Positions 6,935-25,769 of a stretch of DNA of 32,574 nt are shown here, in pieces (position 1 is the stretch's first letter; the number at the start of each line of letters is the position of its first letter). Made by a program: the position numbers and the translations under genes. The notes under the pieces are model-generated. The model made no database searches. It was not told the DNA's origin and worked only from the letters and a program-made list of their open reading frames with translations. This DNA is from Omnitrophica bacterium RIFCSPLOWO2_01_FULL_45_10b (GTDB lineage Bacteria > Omnitrophota > Omnitrophia > Omnitrophales > Danuiimicrobiaceae), in the NCBI GenBank assembly GCA_001804205.1, contig MHFM01000011.1, forward strand, positions 21,198 through 53,771. The letters run 5' to 3'.

Positions 6935-8233
6935 ATGAAGTGGCTTTACGATTTTTGTTTTTTAATCTTCGCACTTTTTTCAATTCCAAAATTTTTGGTT
7001 CGCTTGAATCAAGCGCACGATTCAAAAGAACTGATTTGGCAAAGATGGGGTATTTTTTCAAAAACGTTAAAGGGGCGATTTTCAGGGCGGCGAATTCTTT
7101 GGCTTCATGCGGTGAGCGTTGGAGAAGTAATGGCGGCCAGACAATGGATTCAGAACTTTCTGAAAGATTATCCAACATGGACCCTCGCACTTTCAGCCAC
7201 TACGCCCACGGGCCGTCAAATGGCCGAAACGTTGGCTTCGGATCGAGTGGTCGTTTTTTATGCCCCATTTGATTTAAGCAACGTGGTGCGGCGGTTCCTT
7301 AATATTCTTCAACCCAAAATGATTGTGTTAATGGAAACGGAGCTTTGGCCTAATTTAATTTCCGAAGCCAGCGCTTTCGGAATTCCGATCGGTATTGTGA
7401 ATGGCCGAATTTCACCCCGTTCGTTTAAGCAATATCAGCTGGTTTCTTGGTGGCTTGGTTCGATTTTAAGAAAGCTTTCTTTTTGTTTGGTTCAATCGGA
7501 ACGAGATGGAGAATATTTCTCCAAGTTGGGCATGCCTCAAGACAAGATTTTTTGTACAGGGAATATGAAATTTGATCATTTTGGCGCTCCTGAAAAAGCG
7601 CCGTTTTCAACATCCGTGATCTCCGAAAGAGAAAAAAAGCTTGTTTGGGTTGCCGGAAGTACCAATTGGAATGAGGAAGAGGCGATTCTACGGGTGTTCA
7701 GCCGTTTGCGAAATAATTTCCAAAATCTTCAATTGATTTTAGCTCCGCGCCATCCGGAGCACCTTTCTAAAGTCATTGGCGCTGTTCGCCGGAACGGGTT
7801 TCAGTATCGCCTCTTTTCTGAAAATGGCTCGAATCATCAAGCTCCGGTGCTTTTAATCGATCGGATGGGTGTTTTGGCCTCTCTTTATTCATTGGCGGAC
7901 GTTGTGTTTGTGGGAGGAAGTTTTGTGCGCCGCGGCGGACAAAATCCCATTGAAGCTGCTTGTTGTAGAAAACCTTTGCTCCATGGGCCGAACGTATTTA
8001 ATTTTTCGGAAGTCTATCAACTCTTAAACCAAAACCACGCTGCGTTCCAAGTTCAATCAGAAGAGGAGTTGTTTCAGAAGCTCAAACTGCTTCTTGAACA
8101 ACCCAAGCTTCGAGCGGACATGGGTTCTCAGGCTTGGTCTGTTGTTCAATCAATGAAAGGAGCTACGGCACGAACGCTGGATTATTTATCTCGTTGGATT
8201 GAACTCCGCGAGCAGCCCGTTGCTGTGGCATAA
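6935..8233 (+). CDS. waaA: 3-deoxy-D-manno-octulosonic acid (Kdo) transferase
   Basis: WaaA transfers Kdo from CMP-Kdo to the lipid A precursor at the cytoplasmic face of the inner membrane. The 432-residue length is normal for this GT30, GT-B-fold family. An N-terminal hydrophobic anchor (residues 4-20) is followed by the family motif LWLHAVSVGEVMAARQ, with the catalytic Glu at 64. Then come METELWPNLI, GRISPRSFK, TGNMKFD, APRHPEH and, in the C-terminal half, GGQNPIEAACC. A strong AAGGAGG site (6915-6921) overlaps the xerC stop and precedes the ATG. The next gene, lpxK, follows after four bases. Whether it adds one or more Kdo residues cannot be read from the sequence. Confidence 0.95.
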   Translation: MKWLYDFCFLIFALFSIPKFLVRLNQAHDSKELIWQRWGIFSKTLKGRFSGRRILWLHAVSVGEVMAARQWIQNFLKDYPTWTLALSATTPTGRQMAETLASDRVVVFYAPFDLSNVVRRFLNILQPKMIVLMETELWPNLISEASAFGIPIGIVNGRISPRSFKQYQLVSWWLGSILRKLSFCLVQSERDGEYFSKLGMPQDKIFCTGNMKFDHFGAPEKAPFSTSVISEREKKLVWVAGSTNWNEEEAILRVFSRLRNNFQNLQLILAPRHPEHLSKVIGAVRRNGFQYRLFSENGSNHQAPVLLIDRMGVLASLYSLADVVFVGGSFVRRGGQNPIEAACCRKPLLHGPNVFNFSEVYQLLNQNHAAFQVQSEEELFQKLKLLLEQPKLRADMGSQAWSVVQSMKGATARTLDYLSRWIELREQPVAVA

Positions 8234-8237
8234 AAAT

Positions 8238-9569
8238 ATGACACCACGTAATTATTTTCGACTTCTTGCCGAGGATCATCTTCGTGTCAGCCGATGGGCT
8301 TGGTTGTGGAAGCCTTTTTTGATGTTGGCGTCCGCTTTTTATTCAATAGGACTGGATATCCATCGCACGCTTTATCAAATTGGAATTTTGAAGCGGCGCT
8401 CATTTTCTTGTCCGGTGATTAGCGTGGGCAATCTCACATGGGGCGGCACTGGCAAAACACCGATTGTGGAATATATTGCCCGGTTTTATTTAAACCGGGG
8501 GAATATACCGCTCATTTTATCCCGTGGTTACGGGGCGGATGAGAGCAGGGCGCTTATTCGCCAGCTTCCGGATGCATTATTTGGCATTGGCAAAGACCGG
8601 TATCAATCGGGACGAAAAGCTTTGGAACGACGGCAAGCGAATGTCGCCGTTTTAGATGATGGTTTTCAGCATTGGAACCTCAAACGCGATTTGGATGTGG
8701 TCGTGGTCAATGTGCTCAATCCGTTTGGTAATTTATGGCTGATTCCGCGTGGGATTCTCAGAGAGCCTTTAAGTAGTTTGAAGCGCGCTTCCATCGTTGT
8801 TCTAAGCGATGTGAATTTAACTCCCCGAAAAGATTTGGAGCATTTGAAAAATGCAATTCGAGCGGTTGCTCCAAAAGTAGAGTTTGTAGAAGCCCATCGC
8901 GAGGCGCTTTATTTTTATCGGCCCGGTTCCCGCGAACGGATATCGCCCGATCGGCTTCAGGGCCAGCGTGTCACCAGTTTTTCCGGAATTGGAACTCCCC
9001 GCTCATTTCAAATGTTATTGAATCAATTGGGCATGAAAACGATTCGAAATTTTGAATTTTCAGATCACCACCGTTATTCGGATCAGGAATTAAACGAAAT
9101 TCTGAAGGCAAAGGAATCCAGTGAATCGGATGAAATTGTCACAACCGAGAAGGATTTTTTTCGCTGTGAAGAAGCGATGAAAAAAATTGTGAAGCCGCTT
9201 GTTTTGAAAGCACGTTTGCGCCTGACAACCGGCGAAAACATACTTCATCAATATCTCGGCCGTTTTGCGGCACCTTCTCAACCGAAGCCTTATATGGCAA
9301 GGCGAAATGATGGTGCTAGGGATTCGGCAAGAAATGATTCTGCCCAAGCCCACCGCCGGCCAAATCGTTTTCGCAGGCCTTCATCTAGGCCGCATTCCCC
9401 ATTTGTCCCTCAAAAGGGTGATGCCCAACTTGCTCCAACTTCTGAAAGTACAGCGCTTCCCACAGAAAAGGGAACTTCAGACCCGTTACCGGAGAAGCCA
9501 TTGGGAAAGGAAATATCAGATACAAAATTGAACAATCATGATGGATCAAATGCTGGTTTGGTATCTTAA
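8238..9569 (+). CDS. lpxK: tetraacyldisaccharide 4'-kinase with unusual C-terminal tail
   Basis: LpxK phosphorylates the 4' position of the lipid A disaccharide at the inner membrane. An N-terminal hydrophobic helix (about residues 26-40) is followed by the family P-loop GNLTWGGTGKTP (64-75), LSRGYG, GKDRYQSGRKAL, VLDDGFQHW and IPRGILREPLSSL. The later SDHHRYS and TTEKD motifs are also typical. ATG 8238, four bases after waaA, is preferred to the track's TTG 8199 inside waaA. The recognisable domain ends near residue 350 (base ~9290). About 90 further residues are rich in Arg, Pro, Ser and charged residues, match no family I know, and overlap the next gene by 32 bases. The true 3' end is therefore doubtful. 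Confidence 0.9.
   Translation: MTPRNYFRLLAEDHLRVSRWAWLWKPFLMLASAFYSIGLDIHRTLYQIGILKRRSFSCPVISVGNLTWGGTGKTPIVEYIARFYLNRGNIPLILSRGYGADESRALIRQLPDALFGIGKDRYQSGRKALERRQANVAVLDDGFQHWNLKRDLDVVVVNVLNPFGNLWLIPRGILREPLSSLKRASIVVLSDVNLTPRKDLEHLKNAIRAVAPKVEFVEAHREALYFYRPGSRERISPDRLQGQRVTSFSGIGTPRSFQMLLNQLGMKTIRNFEFSDHHRYSDQELNEILKAKESSESDEIVTTEKDFFRCEEAMKKIVKPLVLKARLRLTTGENILHQYLGRFAAPSQPKPYMARRNDGARDSARNDSAQAHRRPNRFRRPSSRPHSPFVPQKGDAQLAPTSESTALPTEKGTSDPLPEKPLGKEISDTKLNNHDGSNAGLVS
9226..9531 (+). other. alternative open frame over the 3' end of lpxK
   Basis: The frame offset from lpxK is open from 9226 (after a run of stops) to TGA 9529-9531, which ends six bases before the ATG of the next gene. From ATG 9307 it would encode about 74 residues with a balanced hydrophobic/basic composition (for example GQIVFAGLHLGRIPHL). 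The lpxK frame over the same bases encodes a low-complexity polar tail. The clean junction hints that this frame was, or is, the coding one, as a small gene or a frameshifted extension. No family was recognised and it may be chance. Confidence 0.3.
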
Positions 9570-11487
9570 AAGATTAAGTGCTTTTTTGCAGGCACTGCCA
9601 TTGGAATGGGCCCTTGGTTTGGGACGTTGTGTGGGAATTTTTCTTTCTTGTATACATCCTCGCCGTGAAATTGCCTACGTCAATTTAAAAGCTGCTTTCG
9701 GAAGTCGTTACAGTGCCCGCGAACGAAAGGCAATTGTACGGAAACACTTTTGTCATTTAGGGCAAACGGCCGTGGAAGTTTTGCGTTTTCCAAAAATGGA
9801 TCTGAATTATTTTGAGCGTTACATTCAAGTCGAGCATCGAGAACGTTATGAACAAATCGTCCAAAAAAATCAAGGCACAATTTTAATCACGCCGCATTTT
9901 GGAAATTGGGAATTATCGCAAATTTTATCTGCCATTGTTGGAAAATCTCTTTATGTTTTAGCGCGCGAACAAAAACATACCAAGCTCGACGATTTTTTAA
10001 ATGAACTCCGCTCTTCCCACGGCTCCGTGGCCATACACAAAGGCGGCGGCGTGCGGGATTTGATTCGCGAACTTCGAAAAGGGGGGCTCGTAGGAGTCTT
10101 GGGAGATCTTTCCGGCGGGCGCACGGGGAATATTGTTCGCTTTTTTGGACGCAAGACCACCGCTCCACAAGGTATTTTTGAAATTGGGTTGAGAACTCAT
10201 TCCACAATTCTTCCATGTTTTCTCGTGCGGCTCAAAGGTCCGCATCACCAGGTATTTGTTGAGGAACCATTTGCTTTGGCGCAATCCGGCAATGAAGCAA
10301 AAGATATACATGATAGCGTTCAGAATTATTACCGCCTTTTGGAAACATGGATTGAGCGATATCCGGATCAGTGGTTTTGGATTTATAAGCGCTGGAAGCA
10401 TTGCTTTACAAAACGGATTGTGATGTTGCACGATGACCGTGCCGGGCATACCCATCAGTCTGAGGCAATCATGAAAGAATTTGAAGGACTTAAAGAATCG
10501 TTGCCTCATGACTATGAACTTGAACTCCGCTCTGTTCCTGTTCAGTTCAGAAGCGATTGGCACCGGAAGTTATTCTTTGTTTTTGCTTTTTTTGCCCGAC
10601 CGTTTATCCAAGGCCGATTAGGCTGTTTAAACTTTTTTTTAGAACCCAATTGCGCTGTGACACTCCGTGATTTGCATGCGGATATTATCATTTCAGCAGG
10701 CTCTGGCCTTGCGCCTTTAAATCTTCTCTTGAAACGGGAAAATCTTGCGAAATCCGTTGTCATGATGAAACCGTCATTTCCTTATTTGGCACGTTTTTTT
10801 GATCTTTTAGTCGTTCCCCTTCATGATGCTTTTCCAAGGCACACGAACCGTACCATCCGGACATTGGTTACGCCAAGCCGTGTGGATGAAGATTTGCTTC
10901 AAGCTTCTCGGGATCAATTAAGTTCAAACGCTTCCTTGCATTCGAACGGTGCCGGCAGAGTCAGTGTATTTATCGGAGGAAAAACAAGATCGTATCAGCT
11001 AAACCCAGATGTTTTTCGTAAGTGGCTTTCTACGCTTAAAGCATGCGCTGCAGAGAAAAAATGGGAACTTTTAGTCACTACGTCAAGGCGTACAGCGCCT
11101 GAAATTAGCGCAATTATTAAAGAAGAATTGGCTGGGCACCCAGCGACTAAATTGTTGATCATTGCCAACGAATCCAATATCGAAAATGCCGCTTACGGAA
11201 TGCTGGCGCTTTCTGAACTCGCTTTGATCACCGAAGACAGTATTTCTATGGTTTCGGATGCGGTCAGCGCCGGAAAAAATGTTTTGGTGATGCAGCTTGG
11301 AAATGGAAAACTTCCCAAGAAACATGCCCGCTTTCACCAAGCGTTGGAAGCAAATGCCCTCATTCAGCGTGCCGACGCTGCCAATTTTCTCACCCAATTA
11401 GCCGCTTTTAATGGAACTCGCAAGAAAGATACTGTTTTGGAACAACAGTCTCGTCTCATTCAAGAGGCATTGCGTAAATTATTATGA
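9538..11487 (+). CDS. fusion: LpxL-type lipid A acyltransferase + ELM1-like domain
   Basis: The 649-residue protein has two parts. Residues 1-290 form a lauroyl/myristoyl acyltransferase of the LpxL/HtrB family, which adds secondary acyl chains to lipid A. It shows an N-terminal membrane segment, the catalytic HFGNWE (His120, Glu125), a substrate-loop region around GDLSGGRTGN and a terminal QWFWIYKRWKH. Residues 292-649 resemble the ELM1 family (named after a plant mitochondrial fission factor), seen in HDDRAGHTHQSEA, FIGGKTRSY, TTSRRTAPE and TEDSISMVSDAVSAGK. That fold is predicted to be glycosyltransferase-like, with no established reaction. The two parts join without an obvious linker. The start is one of two adjacent ATGs; the stop overlaps the next gene by ATGA. 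Confidence 0.85.
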   Translation: MMDQMLVWYLKRLSAFLQALPLEWALGLGRCVGIFLSCIHPRREIAYVNLKAAFGSRYSARERKAIVRKHFCHLGQTAVEVLRFPKMDLNYFERYIQVEHRERYEQIVQKNQGTILITPHFGNWELSQILSAIVGKSLYVLAREQKHTKLDDFLNELRSSHGSVAIHKGGGVRDLIRELRKGGLVGVLGDLSGGRTGNIVRFFGRKTTAPQGIFEIGLRTHSTILPCFLVRLKGPHHQVFVEEPFALAQSGNEAKDIHDSVQNYYRLLETWIERYPDQWFWIYKRWKHCFTKRIVMLHDDRAGHTHQSEAIMKEFEGLKESLPHDYELELRSVPVQFRSDWHRKLFFVFAFFARPFIQGRLGCLNFFLEPNCAVTLRDLHADIIISAGSGLAPLNLLLKRENLAKSVVMMKPSFPYLARFFDLLVVPLHDAFPRHTNRTIRTLVTPSRVDEDLLQASRDQLSSNASLHSNGAGRVSVFIGGKTRSYQLNPDVFRKWLSTLKACAAEKKWELLVTTSRRTAPEISAIIKEELAGHPATKLLIIANESNIENAAYGMLALSELALITEDSISMVSDAVSAGKNVLVMQLGNGKLPKKHARFHQALEANALIQRADAANFLTQLAAFNGTRKKDTVLEQQSRLIQEALRKLL

Positions 11488-13613
11488 AGATTGCACAGAT
11501 TCTGCCTCATCTTGATGTCGGCGGCGTTGAAACCGGAACGGTTGATTTGGCCAAGGCGCTTAAAAAACGCGGCGATCAACCTTATGTTATTTCCAACGGC
11601 GGTGTTTTGGTGGAAGAACTTGTGAAAGCAGGAATTCCGCACCTCAAGCTTCCCGTTCACCAAAAATCGATCACCTCACTTCGGTTGGTTCGCGAAATTG
11701 CGGATTTTCTGGAACGGGAGCGAATCGATATCATCCATGCCCGGAGCCGCGTGCCGGCTTGGCTTGCTTACCTCGCCGTCCGCAGGACCAATTGCGATTT
11801 TGTGACCACATGTCATGGCTATTATTCGAAACATTTTTTAAGCCGGGTGATGGGATGGGGCAAGAAGGTTATTGCGATTTCTCATTCGATTGGGCGGAGA
11901 ATGATCGATGATTTTGGCGTTCCGCCAGAGCGCATCGCCTTAATTCATCGGGGTGTGGATTTGAGCCGTTACCCCTTTGTTCAAACCAAGTATGATCGGC
12001 CTAAATCTGGGCCGTTTAAAATTATTAATGTAGGACGGATTACACCCATCAAAGGGCATCAGGAATTTATTCGCGCCGTTCATCTGCTTTCAAGGCGCTT
12101 TCAGAATTTTGAAGTTTCCATTGTGGGGGCAGCCGATGATGACAAGGCCTCTTATTTTCGGGATTTAAAAATTATGGTCCAGCGCCTTGGTTTAAATTCA
12201 CAAGTCAAATTTTTGGGGACTCGGCGGGATATCCCCGAACTTTTAAAAGAAGCTGATCTTCTTGTTTTATCTTCCAAGATTCCGGAAGCGTTTGGGCGTG
12301 TTTTGATTGAAGCGGGTGCCTGCGGTACCGCTGTGATCGCATCCCGGATTGGCGGTATTTTAGACGTGGTTAATGACAATGAAAACGGCCTTTTGTTTTC
12401 TCCTGAAAATTTCGAAGAAATGGCGGTTGCGATGGAACGCTTGCTTCGCGACCGCGCGCTTGCGAAGAAATTTTCTTCCAATCTGCGTCAAAAAGTGGAG
12501 CGTGAATTTTCGCTTGACCGAATGGTGGAAAAAACCTGCCAAGTCTATGATGAGGTGAAACATCAAAAAAGAATCCTCGTCACTAAATTAGGAGCGGTTG
12601 GCGATTTGGTGCTCGCGGTTCCCAGTTTTCGAATGCTTCGGAAAAGATTTCCGAGCGCCAATATTTCACTTTTGGTTGAATCTAAATTGATTCAGCTGGT
12701 CGAACGCTGCCCTTATCTTGACGAGATCATTGTCTTTGACCGGTCAAATCAAAAGGACCAGTGGCGGCGTCTTTTGATATTGGGCAAGCGGTTGAAACAA
12801 AGGGGATTTGATATTTCCATCGATTTGCAAAACAACTGGAAAACCCATTTGCTTGCTTTCTTAGCCCGAATTCCCAAGCGCTACGGTTACAAGCGTGGCT
12901 CCGCAGGCTTTTTGTTAACTCATCCCATTACATTTTGGGATCAAAGTTTGGGCCCTATCGAACATCAATTTCAGGTGCTCAAACGCGCAGGTGTCGTCCA
13001 TTTTGAAGATGCCATCGAGCTTTGGCCGGGGGCAGAAGAGGAAGCTTCCATCGGCGCTCGATTAAAGCAGGCTGGTAGAGATTCGGCAAAACGACTGGTG
13101 GGTTTCATTTTAGGTTCGAGCCCTAACTGGCCAACGAAACAATGGCCGATTGAGCGTTTTGTGGAGCTTTCTAAAAATTTACTTCAAAGATTCGACTGTC
13201 AAATCGCTCTGATTGGAACTAAGGAGGATGAGAAGCTGGCCCAGTCATTTAATCCCTTGAATTCAAAGCATATTTTCGACTTTACCGGAAAAACATCTCT
13301 GGGCGAATTGGCCAGCTTAGTCAAGCATCTTGACGTGATCCTTACAGGGGATACGGCACCGCTTCATATCGCAAGCGCATTTGAAACGAAGATCGTAGCG
13401 CTGTTCGGTCCTACGGAACCCAAGCGCCATATGCCGCCCGGAAAAGATCACATCGCTTTGGTGAAACGTATTCCATGTCAGCCTTGCTACAGTGGAACTT
13501 GCAAAAATTCAGAGAAATTGCTCTGCATGCGCGAAATCAGCGTTTCTGAAGTTGTGGATGCGGTAAGCCGGCAATTGGAACAATGTTCCGCCGCTTTAGG
13601 CACGACTCATTAA
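11484..13613 (+). CDS. fusion glycosyltransferase: GT4 domain + GT9 (heptosyltransferase-like) domain
   Basis: The 709-residue protein joins two GT-B glycosyltransferases. Residues 1-358 are GT4: LPHLDVGGVETGTVDLAKAL at the start, INVGRITPIKGHQEFI, and the E-x7-E nucleotide-sugar motif PEAFGRVLIEAGA (Glu268/Glu276). Residues 362-709 are GT9: VTKLGAVGDLVLAVPSFRML, GSSPNWPTKQWPIERF, LTGDTAPLHIASAF and ALFGPTEPKRH, ending in a four-cysteine cluster (CQPCYSGTCKN...LLC). The two activities could add consecutive core sugars on the cytoplasmic face. The ATG overlaps the preceding stop (ATGA). Donor and acceptor sugars cannot be read from the sequence. Confidence 0.9.
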   Translation: MKIAQILPHLDVGGVETGTVDLAKALKKRGDQPYVISNGGVLVEELVKAGIPHLKLPVHQKSITSLRLVREIADFLERERIDIIHARSRVPAWLAYLAVRRTNCDFVTTCHGYYSKHFLSRVMGWGKKVIAISHSIGRRMIDDFGVPPERIALIHRGVDLSRYPFVQTKYDRPKSGPFKIINVGRITPIKGHQEFIRAVHLLSRRFQNFEVSIVGAADDDKASYFRDLKIMVQRLGLNSQVKFLGTRRDIPELLKEADLLVLSSKIPEAFGRVLIEAGACGTAVIASRIGGILDVVNDNENGLLFSPENFEEMAVAMERLLRDRALAKKFSSNLRQKVEREFSLDRMVEKTCQVYDEVKHQKRILVTKLGAVGDLVLAVPSFRMLRKRFPSANISLLVESKLIQLVERCPYLDEIIVFDRSNQKDQWRRLLILGKRLKQRGFDISIDLQNNWKTHLLAFLARIPKRYGYKRGSAGFLLTHPITFWDQSLGPIEHQFQVLKRAGVVHFEDAIELWPGAEEEASIGARLKQAGRDSAKRLVGFILGSSPNWPTKQWPIERFVELSKNLLQRFDCQIALIGTKEDEKLAQSFNPLNSKHIFDFTGKTSLGELASLVKHLDVILTGDTAPLHIASAFETKIVALFGPTEPKRHMPPGKDHIALVKRIPCQPCYSGTCKNSEKLLCMREISVSEVVDAVSRQLEQCSAALGTTH

Positions 13614-13615
13614 CC

Positions 13616-14635
13616 ATGAATATTTTGGTGGTTACAAAGAATTGGCTCGGGGACGTTATTTTTGAAACGCCGGCTCTTCGTACCATCAAGGAAAATTTTC
13701 CCCAAGCGCATTTAATCGCAGTAACTCCTAACCGCTGCGTTGAGATTTTGCAGGCTTGCCCTTATGTCGATGAAATCATTCCTTTTGATGACCGGAAGAG
13801 AAAAATGGGTTTTATTTTTAGATGGGGCCTCATTTGGAGCCTTAGAAAACGTAAGATCGACAAAGCTTATTTATTTCATCAGGCCCGTAAATTTGCTCAG
13901 ATCGCTTTTCTTTCCGGTATTCCCGAGCGAATCGGTTATCAAACCAAACGGCGCGGCCATTTGTTAACCCATGGTTTTCCGGAACCTGAAGGGCCTATTC
14001 ATAACGTTCAATATTTTTTAGACCTTTTGCGCTTAAAAGGCCTTAAAGTCAGCGGGGATTATTGGTATGAATTTCGTTATTTGCCTGAAGATGATGCTCG
14101 AGCCTCTTCTTTATTAAAAGAATGTAACTTTGAACCTGGCAACATCGTTGCGATCAACCCTGGCGCAAATTGGGCTCCCAAGCGCTGGCCTGCCGAATCC
14201 TTTCGCGAATTAGCCCATTGTTTGATGGAAAAATATGGGGTTCAGATCGTCATCACGGGAACTGAAGACGACCAACCGGTAGCGCGCGCCATTTTAAATT
14301 CGCACAACGGTACTTCCCTGATGGCTTCGGTGTGCGGAAAGACCTCCGTTCGCGAATTGGGGGCATTGTTTGCGAAATGCCGGCTTGTGATTTCCAATGA
14401 CACAGGCCCGCTTCATATTGCGGCTGGAGTTGGAACAAATGTGATCGGTATTTTCGGGCCGACTCAGCCTTTGGAAACGGCTCCTTTGGGCTCTGGACGG
14501 AATATCGTGATTCAATACGCTCATGAAGGCGTGAAATTGCCTTGGATTGGTGAAAATTTTCCTGCGCCTTGGATGGAATGTATTTCTGTAAATGATATCC
14601 TCCGCGTCATTGAGAAAGAAAAGCTGCTTTCATAA
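13616..14635 (+). CDS. waaF: GT9 family glycosyltransferase, likely heptosyltransferase II-like
   Basis: This member of the ADP-heptose:LPS heptosyltransferase family has 339 residues. The N-terminal half carries VTKNWLGDVIFETPALRTIK, the family's first motif with its conserved Asp, and ACPYVDEIIPFD. The C-terminal half has NPGANWAPKRWPAESF, GTEDDQP, SNDTGPLHIAAGVG and GIFGPTQPLETAP. The ATG at 13616, two bases after the previous stop, is preferred to the track's TTG 13583. It is the only one of the five GT9 domains in this cluster without the C-terminal four-cysteine cluster, and the closest by eye to classical WaaF. The exact acceptor is not known. Confidence 0.85.
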   Translation: MNILVVTKNWLGDVIFETPALRTIKENFPQAHLIAVTPNRCVEILQACPYVDEIIPFDDRKRKMGFIFRWGLIWSLRKRKIDKAYLFHQARKFAQIAFLSGIPERIGYQTKRRGHLLTHGFPEPEGPIHNVQYFLDLLRLKGLKVSGDYWYEFRYLPEDDARASSLLKECNFEPGNIVAINPGANWAPKRWPAESFRELAHCLMEKYGVQIVITGTEDDQPVARAILNSHNGTSLMASVCGKTSVRELGALFAKCRLVISNDTGPLHIAAGVGTNVIGIFGPTQPLETAPLGSGRNIVIQYAHEGVKLPWIGENFPAPWMECISVNDILRVIEKEKLLS

Positions 14636-15621
14636 TGGCTTCTGTTAATTCGAGTAAGGTTCAAAAAATTCTCGTCATTTCGCTAAGCAATATTGGCGAT
14701 ATCATTTTGACGACGCCTGTTATTTCCATACTTCGCGAACGCTTTCCAAAAGCTTCCTTGTCTGTACTGGTGGGCCCAAAAGGAGTTCCTCTTTTTACCA
14801 ATAGCTCTACGGTTGATGAAGTCATTTGTTTTGATAAGCATGCCTCCTGGCCAGAAATGCTTCGGCTGATTTTTCAATTACGGGAAAAAAAATTTAATCT
14901 CATTGTCGATTTACGCCACACGGCAATTCCTTTTTTGCTTCAGCCAAACTACCGGACGTCGCTTTTTGTAGATCGTTCTTCAACTTCTATGCGCCAGAGG
15001 CATTTGGACCGACTATGTTTACTTTTAGAAGTCGAATCTTGCAAAAATCATTTTAATTTTTTTACGGATGAAGAGAAAAACTCAGCTCGATCAAAGTTAA
15101 ACCGGTTCAGTTCAGTTCCCGGCACAAATGATTTTGTTGTGCTTGCCCCAGGCGCCGGAAGTGCGCTTAAGCGTTGGACTATTTCTGGTTTTGTTGAACT
15201 TACCCATTATTTTCTTAGCTCAGGCAAACGAGTTGTTTTGATAGGGGATGAGCACGAAGTTGATTTGGGTAAGGAGTTAGAAGAAAAGGTTTCTAAGTCT
15301 GTCACAAATCTCATTGGTTTATTAACTTTGAGGGAATTGGCAGGATTGATTCATGAGTCTTCATTGGTTGTTGCCAATGACAGCGCTGTCATGCATTTAG
15401 CACATGAGTTGAACCGGCCCACCGTATCTATTTTTGGGCCGACGAATGATAAAAAATATTGGCAAGCGGCCGCCGGCCGAAAATTAGTCCGTTTAAATTT
15501 AGATTGCACCCCTTGCGAACAAGCTCAATGCCGCTTGCCACGCCGTCTTTGTTTGGATGATTTACCGGCGTCATTAGTGATCCGAGCTTGCGAAGAACTT
15601 TTGAACCATGTACCCCATTAA
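14635..15621 (+). CDS. GT9 family glycosyltransferase
   Basis: This is a 328-residue heptosyltransferase-like protein expected to work at the cytoplasmic face of the inner membrane on the LPS core. It shows ISLSNIGDIILTTPVISILRE at the N-terminus, LAPGAGSALKRWTISGF, VANDSAVMHLAHEL and SIFGPTNDKKYW. A four-cysteine cluster (CTPCEQAQCRLPRRLC) comes before the last helix. The 'VANDSAVMHLA' motif has Ala-Val where classical members have Gly-Pro, so its donor specificity may differ. The start overlaps the preceding stop by one base (TAATG). Confidence 0.88.
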   Translation: MASVNSSKVQKILVISLSNIGDIILTTPVISILRERFPKASLSVLVGPKGVPLFTNSSTVDEVICFDKHASWPEMLRLIFQLREKKFNLIVDLRHTAIPFLLQPNYRTSLFVDRSSTSMRQRHLDRLCLLLEVESCKNHFNFFTDEEKNSARSKLNRFSSVPGTNDFVVLAPGAGSALKRWTISGFVELTHYFLSSGKRVVLIGDEHEVDLGKELEEKVSKSVTNLIGLLTLRELAGLIHESSLVVANDSAVMHLAHELNRPTVSIFGPTNDKKYWQAAAGRKLVRLNLDCTPCEQAQCRLPRRLCLDDLPASLVIRACEELLNHVPH

Positions 15622-16675
15622 TCGTTCAGCCATTAAACGGATTTTGATTACGCGGACAGATCGAATCGGTGATTTGGTGTTATCAACCCCCATTTTTCCG
15701 GCCATTAAAAAAAGATATCCCGAAAGTCATGTGGCCGTGTTGGTATTTCAAGAGACAGAACCTATCGTGCAAGGGAATCCATGGATTGACCAAGTGATTC
15801 CATACGATAAACAAGGCCGCCACCGAAGTTGGTGGCAAACGTTACTTTTTGGATTGAAATTGAGGAAAGAAAACTTTGATGTAGCCATTCATCTTCATGC
15901 GACCAATCGTGTCAATATCATTTCTTGGCTTGCGGGCATCCCAGTAAGGATCGGTTACCATATTCAGTTGGGAAGCCATGGAAGACTTGATTCGTTTCTG
16001 ACCCATACGATTGATGAAAAAAAATGGCAGGGGAAGAAACATGAAGCAGAGTACAATTTTGATCTTTTGGCTTTGATTGATGTGCCAAAACCAGAGCCGT
16101 TGCAGCTTCATTTTCCTCTTGAAGTTTCAAGCCGTGAGACTTTGAAACGTATTTTGCCTGAGCGCTTCAACCAGCGATACGTTGTTTTTCATCCCAGCGC
16201 GAGCTGTGTTTCTAAACGCTGGTCTCCTGAGCGCCTCGCTTCTGTTGCTGACAAGCTGGCAAGGGATTATGAAGTTTTGCCCGTGATTATCGGCGAAAAA
16301 GAAGGAGTGTTTCACGCCGCACAAATGCAGGAATTTATGAATGAAGATGCGCTTAATTTAGCCGGGAAATTAAGTTTGGGGATGCTGGGGTGGCTTTTGA
16401 AAGGCGCGCGGCTTTTAATTTCCAATGATTCCGGCCCCGTTCATATTGCAGCAGCAGTGGGGACTCCGGTGGTTTCGATTTTTGGAAGAAACCAGCCCGG
16501 CCTAAGCGCTATAAGGTGGCGCCCTCTTTCTCAAAACAGTTCTTATCTTCAAAAAGATGTGGGCTGCGTCGAATGCCTTGCCCACAATTGTCAGATTGAT
16601 TTCAAATGCCTCAAAGAACTTACGGTAAACGATGTCCTTCACGAAGCGAGAAAATATGAGCCTTTTTTGGTTTAA
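15608..16675 (+). CDS. GT9 family glycosyltransferase
   Basis: This is a 355-residue heptosyltransferase-like protein. Its motifs are RILITRTDRIGDLVLSTPIF, GNPWIDQVIPYD, HPSASCVSKRWSPERL, ISNDSGPVHIAAAVGTPVVSIFG and a cysteine cluster (CVECLAHNCQIDFKC). The ATG at 15608 lies 14 bases inside the previous gene, a typical coupled junction in this cluster. It may transfer heptose or another core sugar; the sequence does not decide. The shared architecture with its neighbours suggests tandem duplication and divergence. Confidence 0.88.
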   Translation: MYPINRSAIKRILITRTDRIGDLVLSTPIFPAIKKRYPESHVAVLVFQETEPIVQGNPWIDQVIPYDKQGRHRSWWQTLLFGLKLRKENFDVAIHLHATNRVNIISWLAGIPVRIGYHIQLGSHGRLDSFLTHTIDEKKWQGKKHEAEYNFDLLALIDVPKPEPLQLHFPLEVSSRETLKRILPERFNQRYVVFHPSASCVSKRWSPERLASVADKLARDYEVLPVIIGEKEGVFHAAQMQEFMNEDALNLAGKLSLGMLGWLLKGARLLISNDSGPVHIAAAVGTPVVSIFGRNQPGLSAIRWRPLSQNSSYLQKDVGCVECLAHNCQIDFKCLKELTVNDVLHEARKYEPFLV

Positions 16676-17816
16676 CGGAGCCATTCCAAAACAAGGATAT
16701 CTTAAGCGCGTGTTAATCGTTCATCCTCATGGCATCGGCGACGTGCTTTGGATCACCCCCGTGATTCGCGCGTTAAGCGAATATGGCGTCAAGCGTATTG
16801 ATTTGCTTCTCGGGAGTCGGACACGCGAGATTTTTGAACGCAACCCCCATGCAAATGAAATGTTTGAATGGGATAAATCGCCTGTAGCAAATATTTTTAA
16901 AAAGTGGTCCCGGTTTAAAAAGTTGGCGGTCACTTTTTGGAAACTTTGGCGCAATCATTATCAAGTGGTTCTTGATTTTTCGCTTGGTTCGCAATATGCG
17001 TTTTTATGCCAGTTCTTTTTTTGGATTCCTGTACGGCTTGGTTTTAATTTTAAAGGCCGAGGAAGATTTTCAACCCATCGCCTTGAGCTTCCCGATGGCT
17101 ACACTGACAAGCCGGTGGCCGATTACTATCTCGATCTTCTCAATATTTTAAACATCCAACCCACGCATAAGCGAACAGAACTTTTTCTGGACGAAAGGGA
17201 TTTTCAAAACGCAGAAGCGATTTTAAAAGAGCTCGGGCTTCATTCTGGAAGTTCTATTTTAGCGATTGCACCAGGCGGGGGAGAATCGTGGGGGAGCGAT
17301 GCGCGTCTTAAACGTTGGCCCGTTCAATATTTTGTTCAGTTAGTAAAGGAATTGCATCGGGATTACGGTTCTTTGTGTGAGGCGATTTTCATTTTAGGAG
17401 GGGCCGCTGAATCTCAGCTGGCCCAGCAGTTTTTAGAAGCGTTTCCTGAGAGATCAGTTTATAATCTTTGTGGCCGTGTTTCAATTCGGACAGCAGCGGC
17501 TTTAATACAAAAAGCTTCGCTTATGCTTGCCAACGATGGAGGCCTTGTGCATGTGGCCCATGCAATCGACACACCAGTCGTCGCTATTTATGGCCCGGTG
17601 GATCCTAAGGTCTATGGGCCTTATCCGGCTAAAAGCGCAGCACTTTCACTTACTGCCAGCGGCCCCGCTTGTCGGCCTTGTTACCAAAGGTTTCGTTATC
17701 AAGCGGCATGTAAAGGAATCGAGTGTTTAACCATGTTAACACCCGATCGGATTTTAGCGCGCCTTCATTCGGAACGTTTTCTCGAACGATTGTCTTCGGT
17801 AGGAGTTTCCAAATGA
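16656..17816 (+). CDS. GT9 family glycosyltransferase
   Basis: This 386-residue protein is the fifth GT9 domain in a row. The N-terminal motif is VLIVHPHGIGDVLWITPVIRAL, where His-Gly replaces the more usual residues before Ile-Gly-Asp. The C-terminal half has APGGGESWGSDARLKRWPVQYF, LANDGGLVHVAHAIDTPVVAIYG and a cysteine cluster (CRPCYQ...CKGIEC). The ATG at 16656 is preferred to the track's TTG 16632 and lies 20 bases inside the previous gene. The stop overlaps the next ATG (ATGA). It is somewhat longer than its neighbours owing to a longer middle region. Confidence 0.86.
   Translation: MSLFWFNGAIPKQGYLKRVLIVHPHGIGDVLWITPVIRALSEYGVKRIDLLLGSRTREIFERNPHANEMFEWDKSPVANIFKKWSRFKKLAVTFWKLWRNHYQVVLDFSLGSQYAFLCQFFFWIPVRLGFNFKGRGRFSTHRLELPDGYTDKPVADYYLDLLNILNIQPTHKRTELFLDERDFQNAEAILKELGLHSGSSILAIAPGGGESWGSDARLKRWPVQYFVQLVKELHRDYGSLCEAIFILGGAAESQLAQQFLEAFPERSVYNLCGRVSIRTAAALIQKASLMLANDGGLVHVAHAIDTPVVAIYGPVDPKVYGPYPAKSAALSLTASGPACRPCYQRFRYQAACKGIECLTMLTPDRILARLHSERFLERLSSVGVSK

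Positions 17817-20566: not shown

Positions 20567-20574
<8 letters not shown>
19519..20574 (+). CDS. rfaE1: D-glycero-beta-D-manno-heptose-7-phosphate kinase (HldE kinase domain)
   Basis: This PfkB-family kinase phosphorylates heptose 7-phosphate at O-1 in the ADP-heptose pathway. At 351 residues it matches the kinase half of E. coli HldE and lacks the adenylyltransferase domain. Motifs are VVGDWILDEFVWGTVDRISPEAPVPVV (the RfaE signature), PGGALNVANNIRTLGG, GLVGRDLRGR, VDPKEKNF, VTPNRREA and the anion-hole VSGAGDTVIAVF with its catalytic Asp. AAAGGA lies about ten bases before the ATG, after a 28-base gap, so it may restart translation independently. gmhA, gmhB and the adenylyltransferase are not in this window and must lie elsewhere if the pathway is complete. 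Confidence 0.93.
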
Positions 20575-23846
<3,272 letters not shown>

Positions 23847-23850
<4 letters not shown>

Positions 23851-24812
23851 GACAAGATCTTGTGCTTGCCAAAAAAGTGTTGAAAATCGAATCTCAAGCG
23901 ATTCAAAAGCTGAGCGCCAGAATCGGCCGAAATTTTGAACAAGCCCTTGATTTGCTCAAGTCATGCACAGGCCGTGTTGTGGTAACAGGCATGGGCAAGC
24001 CCGGCTTCATTGCACGCAAAATCGCCGCTACGTTTGCTTCTACCGGAACGCCAAGTCTTTTTCTTCATCCTGCCGAGGCCATTCATGGAGATTTAGGCAT
24101 GGTGACCAAAGCGGATGTGATTTTGGCCATTTCCAATAGCGGCGAAACGGAAGAAATTACGCGGCTGCTCTCCACCATTAAAAAAATCGGCGCGAAATTG
24201 ATTGCGCTGACCGGAAATATTCAGTCTACCTTAGCAAAAAATTCAGATGTAGTTCTCAATATAGGTTTGGAGCAGGAGGCATGTCCCTTGAATTTAGCAC
24301 CCACCGCTTCCACAACTGCCGCACTTGCTATGGGAGATGCGTTGGCTGTATGTTTGGCCAAACGAAAAGGTTTCCGTGAAGAAGATTTTGCATTCTTACA
24401 TCCGGGCGGAAGTCTTGGGAAAAAATTGATCAAAGTTCGTGATTTGATGAGGCGCGGAAAATTAAATCCCATTGTCCGTGGAACAGCCACGGTAGAAAAA
24501 GCGCTGTTGGCAATTACAAGCGCTCGCGCGGGTTCTTGCACCATTGTGGACAAGCAAGGAAAATTAAAAGGTATTTTTACCGATGGTGATCTGCGCCGCC
24601 ACTTAAAACAAAATGGAGTTTCCATTCTCTCAAAACCGATTGAACCCTTCGCCACGAAAAGGCCGATTGCCATTCAAGATGAAAAATTAGCGGCGGAAGC
24701 GCTTCAAATTTTGCGCGATCGAAACATCGACGAATTGCCCGTTGTGGACCGAAAAGGCCGGGCGGTTGGCCTCTTGGACGTCCAGGATCTTTTGAAAGCG
24801 GGATTTGTATGA
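23847..24812 (+). CDS. kdsD: arabinose 5-phosphate isomerase (KdsD/KpsF)
   Basis: This enzyme isomerises ribulose 5-phosphate to arabinose 5-phosphate, the first step of Kdo synthesis. The 321-residue protein has a SIS domain (VVVTGMGKPGFIARKIAATF, HPAEAIHGDLGMV, ISNSGETEEITRLL, LNLAPTASTTAALAMGDALA, FLHPGGSLGKKL) followed by two CBS repeats (about residues 205-260 and 270-320, ending in VVDRKGRAVGLLDVQDLLKAG). The ATG overlaps the kdsA stop (ATGA). kdsC, the Kdo 8-phosphate phosphatase gene that often follows, is not here. Confidence 0.95.
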
Positions 24813-24824
24813 AGAGGTTTGTTC

Positions 24825-25769
24825 TTGAGTAAGACGCGAAAGCACCGATTTTTTTTGTATCTTGGGCTTGAGCTGTTGAGGCATTTGGTTTTAATTTTGC
24901 CCAGATGGTTGAATCATGCGATGGCCAGCGGCATTGGGTTCTCTGCTTATTGGATTCTTCCAAAAGAACGGGCCAAAACGGTCCGGCATCTAAAGGAAGC
25001 ATTCGGAAACGAGAAAAGCGAACGCGAATTTCTCAAGATCGGCCAAGAAGCTTTTATCCATTTATCGAAATCGGCAATCGATGTGCTTTGTTTTCCAAAG
25101 CTCAATCAAAAACGAATTGAACGCCTTGTTCGTTTTGATGTGGGACGAAGCCTTTTAGACGATGCTTTAGCGCGGGGCAATGGGGCTATTGTTTTAACGG
25201 GGCATATCGGCAATTGGGAGCTTTTGGCCTCCTATTTTCGATTTTTAGGTTATCCGGGTTCTTTGGTTGGTCGCCGAATTTATTATGAGCTGTTCAACCA
25301 GGTTTTAGTTTCGCTTCGCAAGAGCGCTTTGGTTTCGACCATTTATCGAGATGAATCGCCGCGACAAGTTTTGGCGGAGCTTAAAGCCAATCATACGATT
25401 GGAATGTCCGCCGATCAGGACGTTGATAGCATCGAAGGTATTTTTGTTCCTTTTTTTGGAAAACCGGCATGGACACCCACTGGCCCGGCCAAGATCGCCT
25501 TGGCGAGCGGAGCGGCGATTGTGCCGGCTTTTATGATGCATGAGGGAGATCATTACCGTTTGTTCGTGGAAGAGCCAATTTGGCCATCTCAAGAGGAGTC
25601 AAAGGAAAAGGCTGTAAAAATGATGACTGAAGCATGGTCGCAGATTGTGGAGCGGTACGTCCGGCTTTTTCCGAATCAATGGGTATGGATGCATAACCGT
25701 TGGAAAACCAAAGCGGAACCGCAAACAAAATCAAAAAATTTTGTCGGCTTGGAACGAGTAGCTTCATGA
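24825..25769 (+). CDS. LpxL/HtrB-type lipid A acyltransferase
   Basis: This is a second late acyltransferase for lipid A, 314 residues, bound to the inner membrane by an N-terminal hydrophobic segment. Motifs are the catalytic HIGNWE, SLVGRRIYYELFN, the GMSADQDVDSIEGIFVPFFG loop and the terminal QWVWMHNRWK. The track starts at TTG 24819; TTG 24825 is preferred because GAAGAGG (24811-24817) lies seven bases upstream. It resembles the N-terminal part of the fusion at 9538 but has no ELM1-like domain, so the two probably add different secondary chains. Acyl chain length and position cannot be read. Confidence 0.9.
   Translation: MSKTRKHRFFLYLGLELLRHLVLILPRWLNHAMASGIGFSAYWILPKERAKTVRHLKEAFGNEKSEREFLKIGQEAFIHLSKSAIDVLCFPKLNQKRIERLVRFDVGRSLLDDALARGNGAIVLTGHIGNWELLASYFRFLGYPGSLVGRRIYYELFNQVLVSLRKSALVSTIYRDESPRQVLAELKANHTIGMSADQDVDSIEGIFVPFFGKPAWTPTGPAKIALASGAAIVPAFMMHEGDHYRLFVEEPIWPSQEESKEKAVKMMTEAWSQIVERYVRLFPNQWVWMHNRWKTKAEPQTKSKNFVGLERVAS

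Follow-up and report, generated by a model that had tools for sequence, protein, structure and literature searches.

What is the function of a single polypeptide that joins a late acyltransferase of lipid A synthesis to a domain of the ELM1 family? The question is raised by an open reading frame of Omnitrophica bacterium RIFCSPLOWO2_01_FULL_45_10b (GenBank assembly GCA_001804205.1), a member of the Omnitrophota, an uncultured phylum of little-known groundwater bacteria. The frame lies in a stretch of 32,574 nucleotides (contig MHFM01000011.1, positions 21,198 to 53,771, forward strand), hereafter the window, in whose numbering the features below are given. The explanation favoured here, with fair but not high confidence, is that the protein is a bifunctional enzyme of lipid A and inner-core synthesis, composed of an LpxL-type late acyltransferase and a transferase of 3-deoxy-D-manno-oct-2-ulosonic acid (Kdo) related to KdoT of Acinetobacter baumannii, and that two steps in the building of the outer-membrane lipid are probably physically coupled in it. 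Both component enzymes belong to known families and the fusion is without a description in the literature searched (open-licence PMC papers), which contained nothing relevant on LpxL-ELM1 or LpxL-Kdo transferase fusions or on Kdo and lipid A in the Omnitrophota; the original prediction, made from the sequence letters, likewise knew of no account of this pairing.

A two-domain protein found across the Omnitrophota

The features recognised in the fusion protein are as follows.

9538..11487, + strand: LpxL-type acyltransferase fused to an ELM1/KdoT-type domain; single open reading frame of 649 amino acids (aa), ATG start, no internal stop
9538..10398, + strand: N-terminal acyltransferase domain, residues 1-287 (PF03279, Lip_A_acyltrans)
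9895..9912, + strand: HFGNWE, the HX4(D/E) catalytic motif, residues 120-125
10399..10416, + strand: junction HCFTKR, residues 288-293 (from the end of the Pfam match and the alignment)
10408..11484, + strand: C-terminal ELM1/KdoT-type domain, probably GT-B-like (PF06258, BLASTP match to KdoT, structural matches)
10432..10449, + strand: D299...H304, counterpart of KdoT D8 and H13 (alignment)
10822..10827, + strand: H429-D430, counterpart of KdoT H109-D110 (alignment)
11083..11094, + strand: SRRT, residues 516-519, counterpart of KdoT S178-R179-R180-T181 (alignment)

The unbroken frame and the position of HFGNWE are as originally predicted, and the claim that a complete acyltransferase is joined to a complete-looking ELM1 domain is borne out by the profile matches. 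Lip_A_acyltrans (PF03279) covers residues 5-287 (E 1.3e-47; 162.9 bits against a curated cut-off of 22.3; profile positions 14-294 of 295, that is, to the profile end) and Mito_fiss_Elm1 (PF06258) covers residues 302-613 (E 7.8e-51; 173.4 bits against a cut-off of 27; profile positions 1-279 of 304). The linker comprises about 6 residues, as W286-K287 is the last pair covered by the acyltransferase profile and the ELM1 domain opens with a strand at about residue 293. In an alignment of 40 fusions the acyltransferase residues H120, W124, E125, R158, D190 and R231 are invariant (40/40), and so are D299, H304, H429, D430, S516, R517, R518, T519 and S568, which correspond to KdoT D8, H13, H109, D110, S178, R179, R180, T181 and S227. 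Because these catalytic and KdoT positions are invariant, both halves look like working enzymes.

The fusion is a real, phylum-wide, two-enzyme protein. Close relatives of the host are recorded as Candidatus Omnitrophota, and a search of the nearest genomes, which the original prediction had proposed, found the fusion spanning both halves in 36 of 39, a few copies being cut by contig ends, with identities from 70% down to 36%; the other three comprise two genomes with an N-terminal fragment only (one at a contig end) and one with other acyltransferase genes only. Of 285 Omnitrophota genomes, 264 have a PF06258 match. Almost all of the listed matches are in frames about 600-720 aa long, and most of the shorter frames lie at contig ends or belong to a small number of separate stand-alone genes. 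The whole fusion was also used as query against 69 genomes in which the ELM1 match was weak, absent or unusual, and here too the divergent families f48 and f36 proved to have the two halves in a single frame, about 600-625 aa long. The fusion is seen in most of the Omnitrophota families sampled, a deep lineage included, and since these divergent families share it, it is likely ancestral in the phylum. The arrangement that the original prediction had named as evidence against a fusion, a pair of genes divided by a stop near residue 290, was not found in the Omnitrophota; it occurs only in distant Gammaproteobacteria (L116 and L117), as an unfused cassette described below and not as an artefact.

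Outside the Omnitrophota, ELM1 genes occur mostly as short frames: the phylum of a Pseudomonadales genome (G285) yielded them in 76 of 399 genomes, that of a Planctomycetota genome (G290) in 15 of 199, that of a Geobacter genome (G294) in 3 of 198 and that of an Acidobacteria genome (G291) in 1 of 199; there was no relative among viral contigs. The fusion appears specific to the Omnitrophota among the groups sampled, because the long ELM1 frames examined from other phyla (L081, L138, L140, L150, L151) have no acyltransferase domain. In three of these frames (L081:2567-4906, L150:1213-3762 and L151:1-2598; 780-866 aa) the ELM1 domain is preceded by a long N-terminal stretch that matches no Pfam family. 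Some exceptional genes were also noted. Stand-alone ELM1 genes of alphaproteobacterial type occur in three Omnitrophota genomes (G036, G269 and G263; loci L049, L050 and L051), one in each, and were probably gained by transfer. In the tree, two other stand-alone ELM1 genes, both from G025 (L126:3071-4141 and L127:2200-3321), branch within the group of fused domains, as would be expected of a domain that was duplicated and then separated from the fusion. One contig labelled as an uncultured archaeon (L017, CAIKBN010000129.1) bears an LpxL-type acyltransferase, probably through a binning error.

KdoT and the predicted fold of the C-terminal half

The original prediction held that ELM1-like proteins have no settled enzyme activity, a view that is now outdated. 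A. baumannii A1S_2903, a member of the family earlier predicted as GtrOC1 (PMC4172580), is required for the core to receive its third Kdo (PMC10936431) and was identified in December 2025 as KdoT, a CMP-Kdo (cytidine monophosphate-Kdo) transferase that in vitro converts Kdo2-lipid IVA to Kdo3-lipid IVA, favours a tetra-acylated acceptor and cannot start on lipid IVA without Kdo (PMC12856342). In the same study mutagenesis singled out the SRRT motif, R180 above all, whereas the candidate bases D8, H13, H109 and D110 were each dispensable and no catalytic base was found, and a Rickettsia homologue restored core synthesis (PMC12856342).

The KdoT reference used here is A. baumannii L080:4746-5633, which adjoins an ilvE-type aminotransferase gene and whose residues 8, 13, 109, 110 and 178-181 are D, H, H, D and SRRT, as in the published numbering. 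Three A. baumannii records of 3.7-4.1 Mb encountered in the searches (L079, NZ_CP064203.1; NZ_CP077849.1; NZ_CP104448.1) are labelled plasmids and are apparently whole chromosomes. The ELM1 domain of the window matches KdoT by BLASTP with 29% identity over 232 aa (E 4e-18). The two proteins share the PF06258 family, the D8/H13/H109/D110/SRRT positions, a neighbourhood of Kdo genes and a GnaT-type glycosyltransferase family 4 (GT4) gene and probably a GT-B-like architecture; they differ in that KdoT is a stand-alone protein of 296 aa, whereas the Omnitrophota counterpart is the C-terminal half of an acyltransferase fusion, with a predicted donor and acceptor. The H13 equivalent, H304, is invariant in 40/40 fusions, although conservation of H13 was reported to be confined to Acinetobacter (PMC12856342).

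The other half resembles the late acyltransferases LpxL and LpxM (PF03279, for instance A. baumannii LpxM, 5kn7) in its HX4E motif, fold and profile coverage; in contrast to the fusion, these enzymes have no C-terminal glycosyltransferase, and the domain of the window scores under all NCBIfam equivalog cut-offs. WaaA (KdtA, family GT30) is a CMP-Kdo-dependent GT-B enzyme of the same pathway, as is predicted for the C-terminal half, but it belongs to another family and is encoded by a separate gene of the window (6935-8233).

An AlphaFold2 model built from few input sequences has a mean predicted local distance difference test (pLDDT) score of 72 for the whole protein. Its N-terminal part matches A. 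baumannii LpxM 5kn7 (E 7e-14) and PatA. The comparison of the C-terminal half with GT-B enzymes, also proposed at the outset, gave a divided answer: the best matches in the PDB are GT-B-type proteins (uridine diphosphate (UDP)-N-acetylglucosamine 2-epimerases, LmbT, WaaG and a trehalose transferase; E 3e-6 to 1e-4), but at a template modelling (TM) score of about 0.35 and a pLDDT of 64.6, the TM score being low because the relative placement of the two subdomains is poorly predicted. These matches agree with a GT-B fold and are no proof of it; a sequence search of the PDB returned no solved ELM1 homologue.

Gene neighbourhood and an unfused form of the cassette

The genes of the window are arranged in the order xerC, WaaA (KdtA), LpxK, fusion, GT4::GT9, four GT9 (glycosyltransferase family 9) genes, DUF3108, polysaccharide deacetylase, heptose kinase, KdsB, PyrG, KdsA, KdsD, second LpxL, LptC and LptB. 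Those that bear on the function of the fusion are the following.

6935..8233, + strand: WaaA/KdtA, Kdo transferase (PF04413, E 1.3e-59)
8199..9569, + strand: LpxK, tetraacyldisaccharide 4'-kinase, overlapping the start of the fusion (PF02606, E 1.5e-72; TIGR00682 above cut-off)
11484..12557, + strand: GnaT-like GT4 domain, first part (residues 1-358) of the gene after the fusion, with EX7E at residues 268-276; the start codon of this gene overlaps the fusion stop (ATGA)
12570..13571, + strand: GT9 (heptosyltransferase II-like) domain, second part of that gene (profile matches)
13583..17816, + strand: four successive GT9 (heptosyltransferase-type) genes (profile matches)
20567..21325, + strand: KdsB, CMP-Kdo synthetase (TIGR00466 above cut-off)
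22978..23850, + strand: KdsA, Kdo-8-phosphate synthase (TIGR01362 above cut-off)
23847..24812, + strand: KdsD-type arabinose-5-phosphate isomerase (TIGR00393 above cut-off)
24819..25769, + strand: second, unfused LpxL-type acyltransferase (PF03279, E 2.3e-40)

The gene that follows the fusion is of particular relevance, as the activity of KdoT within A. baumannii cells needs GnaT (LpsB), a GT4 enzyme. Searched against an A. baumannii chromosome record, the GT4 domain of the window has as best match a 366-aa protein (E 1.2e-60; next 1e-14) that carries E283 and E291, the published EX7E residues of GnaT, and the reverse search from this protein returns the window domain (E 2.4e-60; next 2e-19). 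By its EX7E motif and two-way best match the domain can be classed as GnaT-like. Such a gene stands directly after the fusion in all 41 loci with enough downstream sequence. In the window it is itself part of a second fusion (11484-13613, GnaT-like GT4 joined to a GT9 heptosyltransferase), which also occurs in the divergent family f48 (L129:6413-8464), and the four divergent GT9 genes in a row after it (13583-17816) make up an unusually long run of heptosyltransferase-type genes.

Two loci from the genomes sampled in the phylum of a Pseudomonadales member, and called gammaproteobacterial here from a reading of their sequences, encode an LpxL-type acyltransferase, a KdoT-like protein and a GnaT-like protein as three separate adjacent genes (L116:907-3935 and L117:1078-4174); the acyltransferase of L116 is above the LpxL/LpxP cut-off (TIGR02207). 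Judged by sequence and order, this trio is the unfused form of the Omnitrophota cassette: the three functions are the same and stand in the same order, whereas the Omnitrophota fuse the first two and join the third to a GT9 domain. A KdoT-like gene adjoins a GnaT-like gene in L121, L122, L141 and L147 too, and in A. baumannii L131 an acyltransferase gene lies immediately upstream of gnaT; no GnaT-like gene was found next to the alphaproteobacterial-type ELM1 genes (L084-L113), within the flanks covered.

The link to WaaA extends beyond the window. In G248, of the divergent family f48 (L129), the order xerC, WaaA, LpxK, fusion, GT4::GT9 is kept, and in the 101 genomes with positions compared the distance between WaaA and the fusion is at most 6 kb in 83 and at most 12 kb in 90. 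WaaA is present in 267 of 285 Omnitrophota genomes, and its absences coincide with those of ELM1 (9 genomes without both; Fisher p 3e-7), which is weak support because the genes are usually neighbours and missing contigs explain part of the pattern. Five Omnitrophota genomes more than 90% complete (G084, G110, G112, G113 and G163) are without WaaA and ELM1, yet have LpxL-type acyltransferase genes, and are possibly Kdo-free lineages. A replacement of WaaA by the ELM1 domain was rejected as a general rule, given that WaaA is so widespread and usually linked to the fusion, and that KdoT cannot start on lipid IVA (PMC12856342).

Proposed function and competing explanations

In the scheme favoured here, the N-terminal half is predicted to be a late (secondary) acyltransferase of the LpxL family that works at the cytoplasmic face of the inner membrane, uses acyl-acyl carrier protein and acts on a Kdo-lipid A precursor. 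The C-terminal half is predicted to be a GT-B enzyme of the KdoT (ELM1/GtrOC1) family that would transfer Kdo from CMP-Kdo onto the Kdo already set on lipid IVA by WaaA; the neighbouring GnaT-like GT4 enzyme may then cap the added Kdo, after which the GT9 enzymes would extend the core. The fusion would keep both enzymes on the same Kdo-lipid IVA molecule and in this way coordinate acylation with the KdoT step. A role in LPS (lipopolysaccharide) assembly through a GT-B-type glycosyltransferase, as first suggested, is supported by KdoT homology, motif identity, gene context and fold and can be narrowed to Kdo transfer; for the latter count KdoT homology, the invariant motif positions, the GnaT-like neighbour, the unfused cassette, the linkage to WaaA, the presence of KdsA, KdsB and KdsD in the cluster, the gene order of f48 and the GT-B-type structural matches. 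A role like that of plant ELM1 in mitochondrial fission was rejected in view of the bacterial LPS context and of KdoT biochemistry.

Several points weigh against this assignment. The identity to KdoT is low (29% over 232 aa), and so is the confidence of the model for the C-terminal half (pLDDT 64.6). SRRT is shared by almost every ELM1 protein inspected, alphaproteobacterial-type members included, and is no fingerprint of a CMP-Kdo donor. The acyltransferase half is below every NCBIfam equivalog cut-off (best PRK08419, 139 bits against 248), and thus its acyl chain and position are not fixed by family. Several different ELM1-family glycosyltransferases occur in A. baumannii outer-core loci (PMC10327509), so that donors may vary. 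Finally, an unrooted tree of ELM1 domains has three arms, one of alphaproteobacterial type, one of KdoT with gammaproteobacterial proteins and one of the Omnitrophota fusions with two gammaproteobacterial paralogues, so that the fusions are not placed specifically with KdoT; a quick tree had suggested such a grouping, which is not claimed here after the careful one. In the quick tree a Rickettsia-like sequence (L118) falls in the alphaproteobacterial arm on a long branch, and if it represents the published Rickettsia protein, two of the three arms include a member known to transfer Kdo.

These points leave room for an active inner-core GT-B glycosyltransferase with a different donor, such as another ulosonic acid, heptose or a UDP-sugar, an alternative that is unlikely but the most probable of the rivals. 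Donor specificity cannot be read from sequence, several ELM1-family genes occur in the A. baumannii outer-core loci, and many heptosyltransferase-type genes follow in the window; on the other hand CMP-Kdo is, to our knowledge, the only donor shown for the ELM1 family, KdsA, KdsB and KdsD are encoded in the cluster, the GnaT-like partner is adjacent in 41/41 loci, and the H13 equivalent is invariant in the fusions despite its reported restriction to Acinetobacter. Doubtful to a similar degree is a stronger version of the favoured scheme, a phylum-wide obligate coupling in which Kdo-lipid IVA would be passed between the active sites, acylation gating or being gated by Kdo addition, with WaaA perhaps monofunctional and the fused domain supplying the second Kdo needed by the acyltransferase. 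Far less probable is a catalytically dead ELM1 half whose part would be to recruit or regulate the acyltransferase, either as a scaffold or by binding Kdo-lipid: the failure of mutagenesis to find a base in KdoT (PMC12856342) means that activity cannot be judged from a base residue, but SRRT, HD and D299/H304 are invariant in 40/40 proteins from many families, which would be needless in a dead domain, and the stand-alone relative KdoT is an active enzyme. An assembly or gene-calling artefact, including an assembly error at the join, might be suspected in a fragmented source genome (1.84 Mb, 75 contigs) but has practically no probability, being ruled out by the recurrence of the fusion in independent genomes of the whole phylum: the nearest ones carry it at 36-70% identity, and distant families retain a recognisable copy.

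If the bifunctional reading holds, Kdo transfer of the KdoT type, whose only demonstrated cases so far in the papers found are Acinetobacter proteins and the Rickettsia homologue, would extend to a whole uncultured phylum. The bacterial ELM1 proteins, mostly unassigned, are tied to lipid A synthesis by two independent signs, the LpxL fusion and the adjacency to GnaT, and the latter bears on the unexplained dependence of KdoT on GnaT in the cell. The Omnitrophota protein also offers a natural single-chain construct for asking whether late acylation and the addition of inner-core Kdo are coupled.

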